Part shown: positions 4,675 to 16,124 of the stretch, one piece after another
Layout: each line of letters starts with the position of its first letter
Position numbering within the stretch: position 1 is the first letter of the stretch
Origin: Treponema sp. J25
GTDB lineage: Bacteria; Spirochaetota; Spirochaetia; Treponematales; Breznakiellaceae
Length of the DNA stretch: 64,000 bases
Assembly: GCF_004343725.1 (NCBI RefSeq)
Contig: NZ_PTQW01000022.1
Span: 1 to 64,000, forward strand
Direction of reading: 5' to 3'
Program-made: the position numbers and the translations under genes
Notes under the pieces: model-generated
Seen by the model: only the letters and a program-made list of their open reading frames with translations
The model's database searches: none
What the model was told of the DNA's origin: nothing

Positions 4675-7341
4675 CTATTGTCGGCGGATAAGTTCCCGGG
4701 GTTTAGAGCCCTGGGCGGGTCCCACGATACCCTGTTCTTCCATCATTTCCACAAGGCGGGCTGCCCGGTTGTAGCCTATTTTAAGACGCCGCTGAATGTA
4801 GCTTGCGCTGGCCTTCCCTTGCTGGTACACAATTTCCAGGGCCTTTTCGTACAGAGGATCTTCGCCGGACGAAAAAAGGGTGGCATCCTGGTCCTCTTCT
4901 TCCTCATCGTAAAAGATTTCGTCATCGATGTATTCCGGCGGTCCCCATTGTTTTACATACTCCACCACCCGTTCTACCTCTTCTTCAGAGACGTAGGCCC
5001 CCTGAATACGAATAGGGAAGGGGTCTACTGCCCCCGCATAGAGCATGTCTCCCTTGCCTAGGAGTTTTTCTGCCCCCACCATGTCGATGATGATGCGGCT
5101 ATCCATCTTGCTAGCCACCATGAAGGCAATCCGGGTGGGAATGTTGGCCTTGATGAGACCGGTAATTACGTCGATAGAGGGACGCTGGGTGGCCAGAACC
5201 AGGTGGATGCCCACGGCCCGGCTCATGGCGGCCAGGCGGGCCACGGTGGATTCAAGCTCCTTGCCGGTGGTAACCATGAGGTCCGCAAACTCATCGATAA
5301 CCACCACAATATAGGGGAGCCGCTCGGTGGCAATGTTCTTTTCTCTTATTTTTCGATTGTAACTGCGGATATCCCGAACCTGCATGGAATCTAGGAGGGC
5401 ATAGCGTCGCTCCATTTCATAAATGCAGTACTGTAACGCCTGGAAGGCCCGTTTGGGCTCGGTAATCACGGGGGTGAGCAGATGGGGAATATCATTATAC
5501 AGTTTAAGTTCCACGATTTTGGGGTCGATGAGAAGGAGTCGGACTTCCGCAGGGGACCGTTGATACAAAATAGAAAGGATCATGGAATTGACGCAGACCG
5601 ACTTTCCTGAACCGGTGGCCCCGGCGATCAAAAGGTGGGGGGTCTGGACCAGGTCGATGGTGATGGCCTCGCCGGTAATATCCTTACCGAGAACCACGGG
5701 AATCTCCATCTTTTTGTCCCGCCGCTGCAGCTCACCTTCGATCATTTCCCGGAAGGACACGATGTTGCGTTTCCGATTGGGAACTTCTATGCCAACCGCG
5801 TGCTTGCCGGGAATGGGGGCCACAATACGGACTGAGCTTGCCGCAAGACGGAGGGCGATGTTGTCCTGAAGGTTCACGATTTTAGAAAGCTTTACCCCCG
5901 GCGCAGGAAGTATCTCAAACATGGTGATAACCGGCCCTTTACGGATCCCCGTAACCTCCGCCTGAATGTTGAACTCTTTCAGGGTTTCTTTAAGAATCAC
6001 CGCCGCATCCCGGGTGGCCTGATCGATAATCCAGTATTGACCATCGGGGTAGGCCGTAAGCAACCCCTCAATGGGTACATGATAGGGCTGCTTACCCCCC
6101 GCGGGGGAAACTCCCCCGCCGTGCAGGGAATTAGCAGGCTGCCTCTCCCCCGAAGCAGCAGAACCGGAAGCCGGTCTTCCCTCAGAGGAAGAAAAAGTAT
6201 CGGCGGTTCCAGTAGCGGAAAGGAGGGTGGGGGCCTCTGGGCGATCGTTGGCTCCATCTCTTGTGATTCCCTGGCTTTTGCGAGCGGCTTCCTTCTCTGC
6301 TGCCGCCAGGGCTTTGCGGAGATCCTCATCGATGGCAAAGGTTTTTTCCCCTGGGGGGGTACTATCAGAAAAAACGGCCGGGGATTGGGGCCGTTGGGAC
6401 GCTCCTGCTTCTTCTTTGTTTGGCCCTTCTTCGCTAGGGGTCCCCTGTGGAACTTCTAGATTATCAGAAATTGATGACCGGTCCCCTTCTTCTATCGGAA
6501 GTTCCTCCAGGTTTTGAGGTTCCTCATATTCCTGCGTTTTGAAAGGGGAAGATGCAACCTTCCTTGGTTCAGCTGGGGGTGCTTGCTCAACCCAAGAACG
6601 GTTCTCATCAGGTGGTTCCTTAGGGCGACCAGCTTCTGTTTCGAGAGGAGCTATTCGTTTTTTATTGTGCTGATCCGCTTGCCCCCTCGAAGAACATGCT
6701 TTCTGTATTTCTTCTAATTCCTCAAATCGACGCAAGCTTGCAAGTGGTTTGGGTTCGGGGAGCGAAAATGGGATAGCTGTATTCTTTTGGTCTACCCACG
6801 ATGGTCTGTCTCTGTCCTGTTCCCTTGGCCCGCTGAGCAGCCTTTTTTCTTGCAAAGGGCGGCGATCTTTAAAAACAGGGGTGTTTTTTTCTTTCCTTTG
6901 AGGATACAGAAGATCCCGGGCCTGGAGAATCACCATACTTTCGAGAAATGTGAGCACTCCCCCAATGCCAAGGAGCAGTTCTGGCGGAAATTCCTTAAGA
7001 AAGCTGAATGAAAGGGCTTCTTCTTTTGTATTCCGCCAGAGGTAGAGGGTAAAGGCGAGGGTAAAGAAGGGAACCATACTCCAAAAGAGAAGGAAATATC
7101 GGTCGGGACGATATTTTCGGGTAAGGAGCAAGAGGGCTCCACCCAGGATGTACAGCGGAATGGCAAAGGCCAAAATTCCGTACGCTTCGAGGAAAAAACT
7201 ACCTACGAAGGAAAGGAAAAACGGCAGAGAATACTGGGCTGCCACAAGAGCCACTGAGAGCAAAAGAGCTAGGGCTATAAAAATACTCGCCACCGTAATT
7301 TCTCTTTTGCGTCCCCGGTAGGAAGCTTGCTGAGGTGCCAC
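4675..7341 (-). CDS. ftsK: DNA translocase FtsK/SpoIIIE
   Basis: 888 residues. An N-terminal block of membrane helices (residues ~15-150), a long low-complexity charged linker (about 180-440), then the RecA-like motor: Walker A GATGSGKS at ~574-581 and Walker B VVVIDEFADL near 680. The last ~65 residues form the winged-helix gamma domain (YIQRRLKIGYNRAARLVEMM) that reads KOPS-like sites. It pumps chromosome ends through the septum. The start is GTG at 7341, two bases after the preceding gene's stop, with GGGAGGA inside that gene as ribosome-binding site; the frame stays open further upstream but would overlap the transglycosylase. Confidence 0.95.
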   Translation of the reverse strand: MAPQQASYRGRKREITVASIFIALALLLSVALVAAQYSLPFFLSFVGSFFLEAYGILAFAIPLYILGGALLLLTRKYRPDRYFLLFWSMVPFFTLAFTLYLWRNTKEEALSFSFLKEFPPELLLGIGGVLTFLESMVILQARDLLYPQRKEKNTPVFKDRRPLQEKRLLSGPREQDRDRPSWVDQKNTAIPFSLPEPKPLASLRRFEELEEIQKACSSRGQADQHNKKRIAPLETEAGRPKEPPDENRSWVEQAPPAEPRKVASSPFKTQEYEEPQNLEELPIEEGDRSSISDNLEVPQGTPSEEGPNKEEAGASQRPQSPAVFSDSTPPGEKTFAIDEDLRKALAAAEKEAARKSQGITRDGANDRPEAPTLLSATGTADTFSSSEGRPASGSAASGERQPANSLHGGGVSPAGGKQPYHVPIEGLLTAYPDGQYWIIDQATRDAAVILKETLKEFNIQAEVTGIRKGPVITMFEILPAPGVKLSKIVNLQDNIALRLAASSVRIVAPIPGKHAVGIEVPNRKRNIVSFREMIEGELQRRDKKMEIPVVLGKDITGEAITIDLVQTPHLLIAGATGSGKSVCVNSMILSILYQRSPAEVRLLLIDPKIVELKLYNDIPHLLTPVITEPKRAFQALQYCIYEMERRYALLDSMQVRDIRSYNRKIREKNIATERLPYIVVVIDEFADLMVTTGKELESTVARLAAMSRAVGIHLVLATQRPSIDVITGLIKANIPTRIAFMVASKMDSRIIIDMVGAEKLLGKGDMLYAGAVDPFPIRIQGAYVSEEEVERVVEYVKQWGPPEYIDDEIFYDEEEEDQDATLFSSGEDPLYEKALEIVYQQGKASASYIQRRLKIGYNRAARLVEMMEEQGIVGPAQGSKPRELIRRQ

Positions 7342-7343
7342 GC

Positions 7344-9644
7344 CTATTCTTCCTCCCTTCCAGATTCTGATGAAAACCCTTTGATGTTCACAGGAAATAT
7401 ATCGGTAATTACCTGTTCCATAGACATACCAAAGTAAAGATATCCGTATACCGCCGCCGCCGCAAGAACCTGTCGTGCGTACTGGCGGGTTTCGGTTATG
7501 GGAATGGTTTCCAGAAAAAGATCCTCCGCCATCGATGGGGTTGTGCTTCGCCACTGTCGCACCCGGGTGATACCACCGTTGTAGGATGCCAGGGCTAAAA
7601 GGGGACTTCCGGTCCGTTCTATAAGGTGTTTAAAATACCAGGTGCCAATATAGATGTTGGTCTCCGGATCGGGTAAATTTACCGTCCCATTTTGAATAAA
7701 TTGGGGCCCCCCCGCCCGGGCAATGCGGCTGGCCGCATCCAGCGCGGTAGTGGGCATTAACTGGGTAAGACCTACCGCCCCTGCCCGGGATACCGCGTCG
7801 GCAGCAAAGGCGCTTTCTGTTCTGATGAGACCATACATGAGTTCCGGTGGAACCCCAAAAGAACGGGCCGTTGTGTCGATGAGGTGGCTATAGGGCCGGG
7901 GATACAGGAGAAAGAGGTCCTCTCGAATAGGGCTGTAGTCCTGCCGGGAAGAGAAACGACTGGTAAGTCGGATGACTTCCCACCACCGTTCTTTTTGAAC
8001 AAATAACTGGGCAAGCTGACGAAGCTGGAAAAGGGAAAGATCTTTTTCATATTTTAGGATGAATGGCAAAACCAGCTTCGTTGCCCCATATTCAAAAAAT
8101 CCCCGCAGGAATTGATAAAGATCCTCGGTCTTTTTATCTGTTTTGTTAGGTTCTTCTTTAGAGGTAGCAGCTACCAGCTCTACCTGGGCTCCCAGATGCG
8201 CCGCCGCAAGGCTGCGGTAGTAAAAAGAGGCCCGATCGCTCTCATAGGCGATCTTGAAGAAAAATGTGGATGGCCGGGATGCGGTGTAGTTTTCGGGAAT
8301 ATCGCTAAAAGAAAGGGGGGTCTTTGGAAGATAGAACCCTTCTTCTATCGATCTTCCTAAAATATAGGCATAGCGGGCCCTGAGGGGGGATTCAAGAAAT
8401 TGATATGCCCGCTGGAAAACCTGATGTAACAAGGCCCAGGAGCTGCGGGTTACCAGGGTGGTGCATATTTTATCCAGGAGATCCTGATAATAAGAGGAGG
8501 AATACCAGAGGGAGATGTATTTGTCTAAATATAAAACAATATTGTCTATTTGATTCGTCACTATCGTGTCGAGGATGTACCATATTGCCGCATCCCGTTG
8601 GGTAGGGCTTTCTGCAAATGCAATGCTTCGCTGGAAAAACTCAAGACTCTTAGGGAAATCTTGCTTTTGTCGGTACATTCTGCCAAGATAAAACAGAAGG
8701 CGGAAGCGAAGGGGATCTATGCCGAGATTTGGTACCTCTTGCTCCCATCGACTAAAAAGTTCTATTCCTTCCTGCAGAGCAGGTCCATACTGATACGCCT
8801 TTCCCAGATCCGAAAGAACCTCTGGCCAGAAAAGAATTGCTTCCTTATTTTCTTCCATGACCTTTTTAAAGTACAAAAGAGCCTCGCCGTAAGACCGGTC
8901 AAGCACGAGCGATCGAGCCTGGGCAACATTTTTTATAACCGAGGGGAGAAGTGTGGGATAGGTGGTGTTAATAAATTTGAAGGTTTTCTGGTGTTCCTGG
9001 CTAAAGGGGGTCGCCAGAAAGTATTTTTTAAACGTCTCCTCCAGAGAGGGAGGGGCCTTTGCTATGCTTGATGATGCTGGTTTATCCTTTGAGATTTTCT
9101 CTATTTCTTTGAGGAGAATAAGGGCTTTCAGGTGATCCGAACGACTTTCTTCTGGTATTCTTTGTATCAGTTTTTCCATGGCCACAAAGTTACCTAAGAC
9201 AAAGCTTATCTCCGCTGCGAGTTCGCAAAGAGGAGGCCGACAATACTCTTTTTCTTTGGTGAACCGTTCAATCAGGGAGTTTAATTTCTGGGTGTTTCGT
9301 TCTTTTTGTTTCCAGAGAGAAGAAAAGAGCGCCTCGTAGGCCTCTCCCCGAATAATGGAGGAAGCGCTTTTTAAGGCCTCTTCGAAAAGAATAAGGGCCC
9401 GTTCTTCCTCTTTCTGAGCCTGAAGCTGTAGTCCCACGTAGAAGGCTATTTCTGGTCCTAGCCAGCGCAGCTGACTGGTTTGTTCCAGCGGCTGGTCTAT
9501 TATGAAACTGAGGGACCCCGCACGAATTTGCTCAAGGACCTCTTCTTTGGAGATACCCAATACGAAAGAAGGTGTACAGGCTTGTAAAAATGCGAGAAGC
9601 ATCCCTAGCCCCACGGAACTCTGGAAAGAGGTTCGGAGCCACAT
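7344..9644 (-). CDS. Lipoprotein soluble lytic transglycosylase (Slt70-like)
   Basis: 766 residues. A signal peptide ends in lipobox LQAC (MWLRTSFQSSVGLGMLLAF then LQAC), so the mature protein is predicted to be lipid-anchored. A long alpha-helical superhelix follows, and the catalytic SLT domain lies near residues 620-740, with the catalytic Glu in GLIRTESAF, then GAVGLTQLMP and ALASYNGG. It cleaves MurNAc-GlcNAc bonds in peptidoglycan. I chose ATG at 9644 because AGGGAGGAG stands about 10 bp upstream and the signal peptide then begins at once; an in-frame ATG at 9671 is the alternative. Lies between the LysM gene and ftsK. Confidence 0.88.
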   Translation of the reverse strand: MWLRTSFQSSVGLGMLLAFLQACTPSFVLGISKEEVLEQIRAGSLSFIIDQPLEQTSQLRWLGPEIAFYVGLQLQAQKEEERALILFEEALKSASSIIRGEAYEALFSSLWKQKERNTQKLNSLIERFTKEKEYCRPPLCELAAEISFVLGNFVAMEKLIQRIPEESRSDHLKALILLKEIEKISKDKPASSSIAKAPPSLEETFKKYFLATPFSQEHQKTFKFINTTYPTLLPSVIKNVAQARSLVLDRSYGEALLYFKKVMEENKEAILFWPEVLSDLGKAYQYGPALQEGIELFSRWEQEVPNLGIDPLRFRLLFYLGRMYRQKQDFPKSLEFFQRSIAFAESPTQRDAAIWYILDTIVTNQIDNIVLYLDKYISLWYSSSYYQDLLDKICTTLVTRSSWALLHQVFQRAYQFLESPLRARYAYILGRSIEEGFYLPKTPLSFSDIPENYTASRPSTFFFKIAYESDRASFYYRSLAAAHLGAQVELVAATSKEEPNKTDKKTEDLYQFLRGFFEYGATKLVLPFILKYEKDLSLFQLRQLAQLFVQKERWWEVIRLTSRFSSRQDYSPIREDLFLLYPRPYSHLIDTTARSFGVPPELMYGLIRTESAFAADAVSRAGAVGLTQLMPTTALDAASRIARAGGPQFIQNGTVNLPDPETNIYIGTWYFKHLIERTGSPLLALASYNGGITRVRQWRSTTPSMAEDLFLETIPITETRQYARQVLAAAAVYGYLYFGMSMEQVITDIFPVNIKGFSSESGREEE

Positions 9645-9753
9645 AAAAAGTTTGCTCCTCCCTGTGGGCATTCCCCGGTGTACAATTCCCCTCTCTCTGT
9701 TGGGCTTTCTGGAGGTCCGTGTCCTCTGCTCTAGTTTCTTTACCCTTCCTCCC

Positions 9754-10770
9754 TTATTTAGGAGGAATCCGAATAGTGGTCCCCGAGATGATATGATCGG
9801 GATTCTTGATTTTATTGAATCGCGCAATGCGCGGATACAGCCATGGATTCCGATAAAACGCCTCCGCTATGTCCCAAAGGGTATCTCCCCATCGTATTGT
9901 ATATAAAACGCCCTCTTTTGGAATAGTGGTCGGTACCCGGTACCGGGAAACCGGCGCAGGGGGGCGTTTGCGGACAGTTTCTGTGGGCATTGTACTCTTG
10001 GTCTGGCTCTCCGATGGAAGGGTCTCTTCCTTTTTAGGCGCAGTACTTTCTGAAGTTCCACTTTCTTTTGCGGTTTCCGCTGGCGGGGGAGTTGGGGCTG
10101 GTTCGGTGATAACCATCGGCGCCGCTGGGGCTTCTGATGCGCCTTCCCCTTCTTCCTGGACCTTCTGCGTGATGGGAGTAGTTCCTGCAGGTTGGTTTCC
10201 CCTTTTTATTGCAAGTACCAGGACTAATCCTAGTATAAGAACAACCAGAATACCTAACAAAACCGCTAACCAGGGGAACCTTTTCCCCGCCCCTGTTACC
10301 GGCGCTGGTTCGAAAGTTTCTTCCTCCTGTTTTTCTTCCGCATACCGTTGTGCCCGGGCGTAGAGGCCTGATGATGAGGGGCTTTCCTGGTCCAATTCAA
10401 AGTCAGGGAACTCATAGGTTTCCTGTTCATTTAACGCTTTAAGGGATACCGAAAGGTGATGCCGCTCTGAACCGGGCGGGGCATCAAGGTCCCTGGCTTC
10501 TGCCACGAGTTCATCCCCTTCTTGGGAAGAAATAATCATCTCTATCGAGGGTTCCCCTTTGGGGCGCGGTTCGATGTTTTCGATTACCAGGGAGCCGATG
10601 TATTCCGCATCTGCCATGGTCCGGGATTCACTCTTGTACAGGTCGATCTGCACACTTTTTTGGTTGTCATGCACGGTGGTAAGGATGAGCCGCTTTTTGG
10701 AGATAGTACCTTCCTCAAGGATGGGGTAAAACTCCCCATTTGCTATTTTGATTCCTATACTGGCCGCCAT
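9754..10770 (-). CDS. Membrane protein: DnaK substrate-domain-like region, TM helix and LysM domain
   Basis: 338 residues. Residues ~20-112 resemble the beta-sandwich substrate-binding domain of Hsp70/DnaK (TTVHDNQKSVQIDLYKSE; IENIEPRPKGEPSIEMII), without any ATPase domain. An acidic linker leads to one membrane helix at 165-188, then a long Pro/Thr/Glu linker and a C-terminal LysM domain (290-338, YTIRWGDTLWDIAEAFYRNP). With no signal peptide, the N-terminal domain should be cytoplasmic and LysM periplasmic, bound to peptidoglycan. First gene of the operon with the transglycosylase, ftsK and SDR; AAGGAG precedes the ATG. The LysM call is sure; the DnaK-like call is by pattern only. Confidence 0.82.
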   Translation of the reverse strand: MAASIGIKIANGEFYPILEEGTISKKRLILTTVHDNQKSVQIDLYKSESRTMADAEYIGSLVIENIEPRPKGEPSIEMIISSQEGDELVAEARDLDAPPGSERHHLSVSLKALNEQETYEFPDFELDQESPSSSGLYARAQRYAEEKQEEETFEPAPVTGAGKRFPWLAVLLGILVVLILGLVLVLAIKRGNQPAGTTPITQKVQEEGEGASEAPAAPMVITEPAPTPPPAETAKESGTSESTAPKKEETLPSESQTKSTMPTETVRKRPPAPVSRYRVPTTIPKEGVLYTIRWGDTLWDIAEAFYRNPWLYPRIARFNKIKNPDHIISGTTIRIPPK

Positions 10771-10907: not shown

Positions 10908-12287
10908 ATGATACCAATAATTCCCGTTCTGGTGGTCATCATTCTTCTTTCTTTAGTGGTTCTTATTCTTATCATGGCTTCACAGAAAGAAGAGACCAGA
11001 ACAAAAGAACCAAAAAAACATAAAAAAAACCGTAGTAAAGAAGCGGTTATTCGGGATGCTACCCGGCGGCTATCTCAAAACCCTAAAGATCCAGAGGCCC
11101 TCCTGGCTTTAGGAGACATATATTATCAGGACCAGGTATGGGATAAGGCCCTTAAAATATATGAAACCCTGGTGGAACTCTGTGCAACTAATCCTGATCT
11201 GGATGAATACGAGATAAACTGTCGCTATGGCATGAGCGCTCTTAAGCTAGGGCTTCAGGACCAGGCGTATAAGGGACTTGTGATTGCCCGGAGTTTACAA
11301 CAAAACAACTTTGAAGTTAATTACAATCTGGGGTACCTGGAATTTCTCCGAAAGAACTATGAAAAGGCTGTTCAATTGTTACAGCAGGCCCGTACCCAGG
11401 ACCCAGAGCATGCTCCCACCCTTCGCTATTTAGGTCATGCCCTCTTTAAACTGCATCGATACCGGGAGGCCCTTGTCTTTTTACGAAAAGCGGTGGATCT
11501 GATACCGGAAGATAAGGAATCCCTTTATACCATGGGAGAATGTTACTACGAGTTAGGACAGGTCGAGCAGGCTATTAAAATTTTTACCCACCTTCGACCG
11601 GATCCTAGCCTGGGACCTACCGCATCTTTGTTTGCGGGAACCATTCACATGAATCAGCACCAGTATCCTAAGGCAATCATGGATTTTGAAATTGGGCTTA
11701 AGCACGAAAACATAAAGATCGAAATCCAGGCGGAACTAAAGTACCGACTTGCCCTGGCGTACCTTAAGCAACAAGAAATTGGACGGGCCCTTACGATTCT
11801 TAAGGAATTGCAAAATAGCTATCAAAATTATAAGGATGTTCCCACTCTTATTGCCAAGTACCAGGAGTTGAATTCGAATAAGAACCTTCAGATTTACCTT
11901 ATGGCGCCGACGGGAGATTTTGTTACCCTCTGTAGAAAGGTGGTGCTGAGCTTTTTCCCAAAAGCCAGGGTGAAAATTACCAATATTGCGGTCAATAAAA
12001 ACGAATGGGCCGATATCCTGGCCGAGGTGGATACCCCTAAGTGGGCCGATGTGGTGATGTTCCGGTTTATCCGAAACCAGGGGGTGGTAGGGGAACTTAC
12101 CGTCCGGGATTTCCATGCCCATCTTAAGGAAGTGAAGGCCGGAAAGGGCTACTGCCTTTCGGCGGGAACCTTTTCGGATGAGGCAAAAAAATTTGTAGAA
12201 GCTCGGCTCATCGATCTGTATGAAAAAAACCAGCTGAGTAAGATCCTGGAATCGGTAGATGCCAGTGTTTCGGCAATTCCCCTTTAA
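10908..12287 (+). CDS. Membrane-anchored TPR protein with a degenerate Mrr-like domain
   Basis: 459 residues. One N-terminal membrane helix (residues 2-24), a Lys-rich cytoplasmic linker, then about six to eight TPR units (roughly 55-330; for example PTLRYLGHALFKLHRYREAL). Residues ~335-450 look like the PD-(D/E)XK fold of Mrr-type endonucleases: ADVVMFRFIRNQGVVGELTV ... GYCLSAGTFSDEAKKFVEAR. The usual catalytic Q/ExK strand appears as VVMFRF, so nuclease activity is probably lost. Function unknown; a scaffold is the likeliest role. Divergent from the LysM operon; apparently leaderless. Confidence 0.8.
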   Translation: MIPIIPVLVVIILLSLVVLILIMASQKEETRTKEPKKHKKNRSKEAVIRDATRRLSQNPKDPEALLALGDIYYQDQVWDKALKIYETLVELCATNPDLDEYEINCRYGMSALKLGLQDQAYKGLVIARSLQQNNFEVNYNLGYLEFLRKNYEKAVQLLQQARTQDPEHAPTLRYLGHALFKLHRYREALVFLRKAVDLIPEDKESLYTMGECYYELGQVEQAIKIFTHLRPDPSLGPTASLFAGTIHMNQHQYPKAIMDFEIGLKHENIKIEIQAELKYRLALAYLKQQEIGRALTILKELQNSYQNYKDVPTLIAKYQELNSNKNLQIYLMAPTGDFVTLCRKVVLSFFPKARVKITNIAVNKNEWADILAEVDTPKWADVVMFRFIRNQGVVGELTVRDFHAHLKEVKAGKGYCLSAGTFSDEAKKFVEARLIDLYEKNQLSKILESVDASVSAIPL

Positions 12288-13583: not shown

Positions 13584-15131
13584 ATGAAGCAACGTACCGC
13601 TTTTTGGCTCTCTCTCTTTCTTTGTGTAGCTGGGAGCTTTCTGGCGATTATGCCGGTGAGCGCTGAGGCCGCCTCTTCTCCAGCTGGGACGGCAAAGACC
13701 GCGGTTATTGTTCCTATTAAAGGGGACATTGAACCGTCATTGGCCGCTTTTATCCGCCGGGAAAGCCGTAATGCCCTTGCCCAGGGCGCCCAGTATCTGA
13801 TTTACGAAATCGATACCTTTGGGGGAAGGGTGGATACGGCGCTTCAGATTTCTTCGTTTATTGGTTCTATAAAAGATGCGACCACGGTGGCCTGGGTCCG
13901 CAGTGGCCCCGATTCGCTGGGGGTAAGCTGGTCTGCGGGGGCCCTCATCGCCCTTTCCTGTTCGGCTATTTACATGGCCCCGGGAACCTCTATTGGGGCG
14001 GCTGCGCCGGTTACCATTGGGCCTGATGGGCAACCCCAGCCTACGGGTGAAAAAACGGTAAGCGCCGTCCGGGCCCAAATGGCGGCCCTGGCAGAACGAA
14101 ATAAGCATCCCGTGGCCCTTGCCCTGGCCATGGTGGACGAAGACCTGGAGGTCTGGGAAATAGAAACCGCCAGAGGAAAACAAATTGCCACTCTGGAGGA
14201 GGTGGAACAACTGGAGCGGGATGCCGCGAATGACGTCCGAAGGGTTCGCCTCATTTCTCCCGAAGGGAAACTCCTCTCCCTTACCGCAGGAGAAGCGGTT
14301 ACCTACGGGCTTGCCCGGGGCTTGGCTGCCGATACGGATGAACTTGCCGCCTTGCTGGATCCTTCCATAGAAACGGTTCTTGAGCAAAGTCCGGGTATAG
14401 CGGATAGTATTGTTTCCTTTCTTACTTCCGGGGCGGTGCAATCGGTGTTGATTTTGGTGGGGCTGGTCATGTTGTTCCTGGAGATAAATACCCCCGGTTT
14501 TGGTATCCCCGGGGTGGTGGCGATCATCACCTTTGCGGTGGTGTTTGGTTCTAACTTCCTCCTGGGTACGGTAGATTCTTTTGAAATGATTCTTTTCCTG
14601 ATTGGGGTGGTGCTTTTGGCGGTGGAAATCTTTATCCTCCCCGGTTTTGGCATTACGGGGATTTCAGGAATTGTGTTGATCGGCCTTTCCCTCGTCTTTT
14701 CGATGCAGGACTTTGCGATCCCCGAATTCTCCTGGCAATGGGAACTATTGGGCCGCAATGTCCTCGTGGTGGTTACCGGCATCATTCTGGGAATTGCAGG
14801 AATTGCTGCCCTGGCGCTGGCGGGTACCCGAATTCGGCTGTTTGATCGGCTGGTCCTTAAAACCCAGATTCAGGGAACGGCGGGGGGGCCTGACCCGGAT
14901 AATCCGGTGGAAGGTGCTCGAGCGCCTGCCCCTGAGGAACCCCTCCCCGATTATGGGGCTCTGCTGGGTAAAACGGGGGTCGCCGTATCGGTGTTACGGC
15001 CCGCGGGGAAGGCAGAAATTGAAGGGACGGTATACGTGGTGGAAACGAATGGCGCCTATGTAGAATCCGGGAGCCCCGTTCGGGTGGTCCGGGTTCGAGG
15101 GAATAGAATCATTGTGGAAAAAGGAGCGTAG
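13584..15131 (+). CDS. nfeD: NfeD-family membrane serine protease (1510-N/ClpP-like plus NfeD)
   Basis: 515 residues. A signal peptide (1-28), then a ClpP/SppA-like domain (~38-280): the likely catalytic Ser is in WSAGALIAL (about residue 117) and a candidate Lys near 157. Four or five membrane helices follow (~290-420), with the soluble OB-fold NfeD domain at the end (about 450-515; GKTGVAVSVLRPAGKAEIEG). These proteins partner flotillin-like FloA, whose gene begins 3 bp after the stop. Start at ATG 13584 right behind a -10 element. Confidence 0.92.
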   Translation: MKQRTAFWLSLFLCVAGSFLAIMPVSAEAASSPAGTAKTAVIVPIKGDIEPSLAAFIRRESRNALAQGAQYLIYEIDTFGGRVDTALQISSFIGSIKDATTVAWVRSGPDSLGVSWSAGALIALSCSAIYMAPGTSIGAAAPVTIGPDGQPQPTGEKTVSAVRAQMAALAERNKHPVALALAMVDEDLEVWEIETARGKQIATLEEVEQLERDAANDVRRVRLISPEGKLLSLTAGEAVTYGLARGLAADTDELAALLDPSIETVLEQSPGIADSIVSFLTSGAVQSVLILVGLVMLFLEINTPGFGIPGVVAIITFAVVFGSNFLLGTVDSFEMILFLIGVVLLAVEIFILPGFGITGISGIVLIGLSLVFSMQDFAIPEFSWQWELLGRNVLVVVTGIILGIAGIAALALAGTRIRLFDRLVLKTQIQGTAGGPDPDNPVEGARAPAPEEPLPDYGALLGKTGVAVSVLRPAGKAEIEGTVYVVETNGAYVESGSPVRVVRVRGNRIIVEKGA

Positions 15132-15134
15132 TGT

Positions 15135-16124
15135 ATGATTTCTCTTGTGGCTCTTGCGGTACTGGGGGTTATAGCCCTTGGATTTTTACTCCTTTTTTTT
15201 AAATTTTTTGGCCTCTGGTTTCGCTCCCTCCTTTCCGGGGCACCGGTAGGCATGGGGAAACTCATCGGTATGTGGCTCAGGCACGTAAATGCCAATGTGA
15301 TTGTCGAAGCCCGTATCATGCTGACCAAGGCGGGTATCGAGGTACCCACGGACCTCTTGGAAACCCACTATCTTGCCCGGGGTGATGTGATGAAGGTGAG
15401 TCGAGCCCTGGTGGCGGCAAACAAGGCAAACATTCCCCTGCCGTTCCAGCGGGCCGCCGCAATAGACCTGGCGGGACGGGATGTGCTTGAGGCGGTAAAA
15501 ACCAGTGTGAATCCCAAGGTTATTGACTGCCCCGATCCTTCCAAGGGAAAGCAAACCATCGATGCGGTAGCGAAGGATGGAATTCAACTCCAGGTAAAAG
15601 CTCGGGTTACGGTGCGGGCCAATATTGAGCGGTTAGTCGGGGGTGCCACAGAGGAAACGATCATCGCCCGGGTAGGCGAAGGCATCGTAACCACCATTGG
15701 TTCTGCCGAAACCTACAAGGCGGTACTGGAAAACCCCGATCGCATTTCTAAAACCGTGCTCGAAAAGGGTCTTGATGCGGGGACGGCCTTCGAAATTCTT
15801 TCTATCGATATTGCGGATATCGATGTGGGGGCCAACGTGGGGGCCAAGCTCCAGGCCGATCAGGCCGAAGCGGATAAACGGCGCTTCCAGGCCGAAGCGG
15901 AAAAACGCCGGGCCGCAGCCCAGGCGCGGGAGCAGGAGATGCTTGCCCTGGTGCAGGAAAATCGGGCCAAGGTGGTCCTAGCCGAGTCCGAAATCCCTCT
16001 GGCCATCGCAGAGGCCTTCCGCAAGGGGCAACTGGGCATAATGGATTATTATCGACTCAAGAACATCCAGGCCGATACGGATATGCGCTCCGCCATCGGT
16101 CATGGGTCGGGGCAGAATAGTTAA
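15135..16124 (+). CDS. floA: Flotillin-like protein FloA
   Basis: 329 residues. An N-terminal hairpin membrane segment ([20 protein letters not shown]), an SPFH/band-7-type domain ([40 protein letters not shown]) and a charged coiled coil rich in Ala/Glu/Arg near 240-290. FloA scaffolds membrane microdomains and affects membrane fluidity and protease/secretion function in Bacillus. Follows nfeD by 3 bp, the usual pairing. Confidence 0.94.

Follow-up and report, generated by a model that had tools for sequence, protein, structure and literature searches.

The window, a stretch of 64,000 nucleotides from Treponema sp. J25 (contig NZ_PTQW01000022.1), carries a gene whose product joins the beta substrate-binding domain (SBD) of Hsp70/DnaK to an acidic stalk, a transmembrane (TM) helix, a linker and a LysM domain (hereafter SBD-LysM; Table 1). 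Read on the minus strand, the ORF starts with the ATG at 10770 and stops at 9754, and a Shine-Dalgarno-like AAGGAG is found just 5' of the ATG. The chain lacks the ATPase (nucleotide-binding) domain (NBD) of Hsp70 proteins, the ORF opening directly at strand beta-1 of the SBD, and also the interdomain linker before that strand. The divergent upstream gene is only 137 bp away, which leaves no space for an ATPase domain 5' of the ORF. ORF 9754-10770 was confirmed as a real gene encoding an ATPase-less DnaK SBD, a TM helix and a LysM domain. The downstream genes for a lytic transglycosylase and for FtsK, which the original prediction placed in one operon with it, share its strand. The Mrr_cat-like, nuclease-like domain of the divergent TPR protein scored 25.6 bits (Pfam; cut-off 21). 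Genes encoding NfeD-like and flotillin-like proteins, upstream at 13584-16124 (+), are found beside the cluster in no more than a few of the close relatives.

Table 1. Features of the SBD-LysM locus, and Hsp70 paralogues of other spirochaete orders (coordinates of the window unless a locus handle is given)
Feature	Coordinates	Strand	Basis or remarks
FtsK/SpoIIIE DNA translocase	4675-7554	-	Pfam; true start probably downstream of mechanical GTG
Lytic transglycosylase, MltS/BB0259 orthologue	7344-9671	-	Likely ATG 9671; Pfam SLT 90.5 bits, BLASTP, synteny
SBD-beta/acidic stalk/TM/linker/LysM gene	9754-10770	-	338 aa
Hsp70/DnaK SBD beta sandwich, aa 1-114	10429-10770	-	Pfam, AF2, VIA-align, groove conservation
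PDFEL(D/E)...GLY motif in predicted cytoplasmic stalk, aa 121-137	10360-10410	-	Homologue alignment
TM helix, aa 167-190	10201-10272	-	AF2 helix, hydropathy, positive-inside
Pro/Ser/Thr/Glu-rich linker, predicted periplasmic and disordered, aa 191-287	9910-10200	-	Low AF2 pLDDT
LysM domain, aa 288-336	9763-9909	-	Pfam, AF2 pLDDT 94-98
Divergent TPR gene	10908-12287	+	N-terminal TM, TPR repeats, Mrr_cat-like C-terminal domain; syntenic phylum-wide
Short-lid/full-length Hsp70 paralogues	L148:1187-2932, L149:1017-2783, L150:7304-9058, L158:8200-9924, L159:1846-3648		SBD match

The identity of the N-terminal domain was assessed by sequence and by structure. The Pfam profile HSP70 (PF00012) matched residues 4-80 with 33.6 bits (cut-off 20.6), the match being confined to profile positions 393-471, which form the substrate-domain part of the profile; this start at position 393, in an ORF that itself begins at the SBD, bears out the earlier statement that an ATPase domain is missing. 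DnaK/Hsp70 SBD chains of the PDB were matched by phmmer at E ~3e-7, and the genome's own DnaK, a full-length protein of 645 aa encoded at a separate locus, gave a 27% match to residues 4-117. An AF2 model of the region, built on a 51-sequence alignment, showed residues 1-110 as an eight-strand beta sandwich with pLDDT 86-96 (~95 over residues 1-100). The Foldseek matches listed for this model were Hsp70 SBDs, and superposition on the DnaK SBD 4r5l_A (DnaK residues 396-503) with VIA-align gave Z 14.8 and rmsd 1.9 A over 106 residues. No alpha-helical lid was modelled, a short helix at 110-116 being followed by the low-confidence stalk and the TM helix with no helical bundle. Pfam, phmmer, AF2, Foldseek and VIA-align agreed on an Hsp70 SBD, and fold prediction with comparison to DnaK returned the DnaK-SBD-like module proposed from the sequence and not an unrelated fold. 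The range first given for it, residues ~20-112, was close at the C-terminal end (~114), but the domain begins already at residue 4.

Conservation within this domain was compared between 115 distinct SBD-only proteins and 17 Hsp70s (E. coli numbering), with groove positions taken from Table 4 of PMC4408060 and NBD-clamp positions from PMC8215388. Entropy at groove positions of the SBD-only proteins was 0.99, versus 1.63 for the remainder of the domain; in the Hsp70s the two classes were not different (1.09 versus 1.05). In a non-redundant set of 30 sequences the values were 1.48 and 2.03 (permutation p 0.005), and the difference in groove conservation between SBD-only proteins and Hsp70s was significant at p 0.003. 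Residues I401, T428, Q433, V436, I438 and G468 were mostly retained. Systematic substitutions were E402->K, M404->A, A429->V, F426->L and T409->Y, the pocket residue F426 being Leu in 93% of the proteins; the arch residues were Ala/Val, versus Met/Ala in DnaK, and the latch R467 was not strictly conserved (K/A/S). On the side facing the ATPase, K414 was E in 85% of the SBD-only proteins, T417-I418 were deleted in 100%, and P419 and D481 were variable; K414 and D481 are NBD-clamp residues of Hsp70 (PMC8215388). A conserved groove combined with reversed or lost clamp residues indicates an SBD uncoupled from the NBD and not decaying evenly, and fits a module freed from NBD allostery whose groove would have been kept for peptide binding. 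In comparison to the DnaK/Hsp70 SBD, the beta fold is shared over ~110 residues (Z 13-15) and most groove residues are kept, whereas ATPase domain, linker and alpha lid are missing, the clamp loop is deleted, the arch is Ala/Val and the module is membrane-tethered. The groove may thus still bind peptides; with Leu at position 426 and an Ala/Val arch its specificity is perhaps unlike that of DnaK, or narrow.

The same comparison bears on the possibility that the SBD has lost the binding of extended peptides and serves as a static sandwich for protein-protein interaction, the whole protein being a structural scaffold comparable to the SBD-like domain of FAP363. This ciliary microtubule inner protein, which is eukaryotic, lies inside doublet microtubules and carries Mn repeats (PMC10973386), has an Hsp70-SBD-like domain within a structural non-Hsp70 protein that has no Hsp70 ATPase of its own (6u42_5F, Z 13.2, VIA-align; phmmer); unlike SBD-LysM, it has neither a membrane nor a wall part. 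The Leu at F426, the loosely kept latch and the missing lid are in line with such a role, but conservation of the groove above the rest of the domain would not be expected for a generic sandwich, and we consider the scaffold unlikely, if the best placed of the alternatives.

Regarding topology, the N-terminus showed neither a signal peptide nor a hydrophobic stretch in any of 47 homologues (maximum 19-aa hydropathy 0.89 over the first 25 windows), so that the signal peptide that would have put the N-terminus outside did not appear. Within 20 residues of the TM helix, the homologues contained on average 4.7 K/R before and 2.6 after it; in 42 of the 47 the number before was no smaller than that after, and a similar bias was seen in a set of 77 sequences. 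Together, the charge bias and the lack of a hydrophobic N-terminus support an N-in orientation with the LysM domain in the periplasm, so that a cytoplasmic SBD with a periplasmic LysM is the favoured prediction. A second, full-length AF2 model was confident for the TM helix (167-190) and for the LysM domain (288-335), with low confidence for stalk and linker, in agreement with the membrane helix and LysM originally described. The linker (191-287) is the least conserved segment of the protein. LysM (PF01476) matched residues 290-336 with 36.3 bits (Pfam; cut-off 20.9), which marks the C-terminus as a candidate peptidoglycan binder. SBD-LysM shares with other LysM cell-wall proteins a LysM above the Pfam cut-off, but has no catalytic domain and its other end is predicted to be cytoplasmic. 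What the computation supports directly is a chain in which an SBD-beta free of ATPase domain and lid is followed by a single TM helix and a LysM domain. As for the earlier description of a cytoplasmic peptide-binding module tethered to peptidoglycan, the two locations are supported as predictions, and peptide binding is suggested by the selective conservation of the groove. In the stalk, a PDFEL-like motif is present in 33 of 47 aligned homologues and conserved beyond the genus; it could serve as a docking motif for a partner. Docking of this motif in the protein's own groove was considered and found unsupported, the stretch being at low pLDDT in both AF2 models.

Conservation of the locus was surveyed in 80 close relatives retrieved from a genome collection, nearly all labelled Treponema or Spirochaetaceae. 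An SLT lytic transglycosylase lies downstream on the same strand in 76 of the 80 loci, the divergent TPR gene precedes the SBD gene in 62 and FtsK is downstream in 43, counts affected by the early end of some of the contigs. The transglycosylase of the window has an N-terminal signal, a lipobox-like LQAC, and TPR and SLT domains, and it aligned to a Borrelia-like SLT protein with 28% over 365 aa (BLASTP, E 4e-39), well past the catalytic domain. The latter protein is 713 aa long, has a lipobox and is followed by UppP; BB0259 of Borrelia has 717 aa and a lipobox and adjoins bb0258 (PMC8517470). The Borrelia-like protein thus corresponds to BB0259, of which the window's enzyme is the orthologue. 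BB0259 is required for flagellar hooks to cross the wall and binds FlgJ (PMC8517470), and, renamed MltS, it was reported to be a functional lytic transglycosylase with a role in the turnover of the wall (PMC12279116). The Borrelia-like locus and one outgroup locus share the arrangement TPR, SBD, SLT, UppP and FtsK; in the T. pallidum-like locus and several other Treponematales loci SBD-LysM is found with MltS, and FtsK is not adjacent. MltS/BB0259, adjacent phylum-wide, is a candidate partner of SBD-LysM and not a homologue.

With a profile of the N-terminal domain, SBD-only proteins were detected throughout Treponematales, in other Spirochaetia and in some other classes of Spirochaetota. One divergent copy, matched at E 3e-8, was T. 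pallidum-like, and Borrelia-like copies were matched at E 1e-8 to 1e-7. The Borrelia-like orthologues (L143:6184-7365 (-) and L164) keep the SBD, a long acidic stalk and the TM helix; no LysM was detected in them, so that the wall anchor appears dispensable in the Borrelia lineage. Judging from position and gene numbering, the SBD gene of Borrelia would be BB0260.

A possible link with periplasmic flagella was explored in 393 Spirochaetota genomes searched for FliF, 29 of the FliF-negative ones among them falling beyond those listed. The Spirochaetia without FliF among those listed were the members of family f12 and genomes G362, G371, G063 and G315. Members of f12, G362 and G371 each had one SBD-profile match, which where listed was their DnaK, and no SBD-only protein. 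G063 and G315, by contrast, have the SBD gene and at first looked like carriers without flagella; both contain FlhA, so that they are probably flagellated and FliF was missed. FlhA was absent from G362, G371 and G224, the three flagella-less genomes checked. Genomes shown to be flagella-less therefore lack the SBD-only protein in two separate lineages, an association that does not in itself establish function and whose co-occurrence counts, losses included, are phylogenetically clustered. Conversely, no SBD-only copy was detected in FliF-containing genomes of f13, f15 and f18 and in Leptospira-like and Brachyspira-like genomes, indicating that the protein is not essential for flagella; f10 and G360 gave only weak matches. 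A lead from T. pallidum, where TP0046-TP0048 have been linked to motility (PMC2386257), was abandoned: the T. pallidum-like orthologue lies between mcp and transglycosylase/gidA, hence upstream of TP0046, and PMC2386257 is silent on TP0041-TP0043.

Fold, topology, conserved groove, adjacency of MltS and association with flagella favor SBD-LysM as a bitopic adaptor across the inner membrane, linking a partner in the cytoplasm or at the basal body to the opening of the wall by MltS, the most economical reading, to which we give about an even chance. The groove would grip a short hydrophobic stretch of a partner located in the cytoplasm or inner membrane, and would do so constitutively because no ATP cycle is available to open it; we infer both this grip and the cytoplasmic orientation of the SBD. 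LysM would reach peptidoglycan through the long flexible linker, and joining partner and wall would place or license membrane-bound MltS, the product of the adjacent gene, where the wall has to be opened, most probably at points where the cell builds a periplasmic flagellum or new wall. Weighing against the adaptor are the lack of LysM in Borrelia, the flagellated genomes without a copy, the altered F426 and arch, and the clustered co-occurrence. More tentatively, and with a clearly smaller likelihood, it may act as a device that spans the envelope throughout the phylum: its ATP-free Hsp70 peptide clamp would recognise a linear motif on a partner in the cytoplasm or basal body and relay that partner's position across the membrane to the peptidoglycan, thereby guiding MltS to the place where the wall is to be opened for periplasmic flagella.

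The retained groove, and the suitability of SBD-beta alone for transient holding, would also agree with an ATP-independent holdase stationed at the inner membrane, which would prevent the folding of exported or flagellar clients close to their translocon, with LysM merely fixing its position. The gene is beside that of a Sec-exported lipoprotein-like enzyme and tracks flagella, but a general holdase needs neither a wall anchor nor strict gene pairing with MltS, which makes this option rather improbable. Septal action with FtsK at the division site, as originally suggested, is the most doubtful: FtsK is downstream in just over half of the close loci as well as in the Borrelia and outgroup loci, and wall synthesis and turnover in Borrelia are concentrated at midcell (PMC12279116), but nothing specific points to this role. 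The most constant neighbour is MltS, the T. pallidum-like and other Treponematales loci dispense with adjacent FtsK, and flagella-less genomes of otherwise dividing cells have no SBD-only protein.

The two domains are individually known. In the open-licence literature no description was found of an SBD-TM-LysM architecture, of an SBD that has lost the ATPase but retained its groove, of such a family conserved across the phylum or of its pairing with MltS. FtsN and RodZ are bitopic envelope adaptors with a cytoplasmic module, one TM helix and a long periplasmic linker, ending in FtsN with a wall-binding domain. The layout of SBD-LysM is similar, an Hsp70 SBD replacing the short basic tail or HTH, and LysM replacing SPOR. 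SBD-LysM, which is conserved and uncharacterised and has one end predicted in the cytoplasm and the other on the wall, is a direct candidate for directing MltS; Treponema has it, and Borrelia has a form devoid of LysM. The protein would further provide a clear example, in bacteria, of selection maintaining an Hsp70 substrate domain in the absence of the ATPase.

Other spirochaete orders have full-length Hsp70 paralogues of ~575-600 aa (Table 1) whose SBD is closer to the SBD-only family than is that of canonical DnaK. Descent of the family from these short-lid paralogues was considered on account of this match, but the tree, which groups all Hsp70s in one clade (0.998), does not single out a parent. 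In the Borrelia-like contig, a Borrelia-type short Hsp70 of 503 aa (L143:10804-12315 (-)), probably a BB0264-type protein, is encoded within a few genes of the SBD/MltS cluster.
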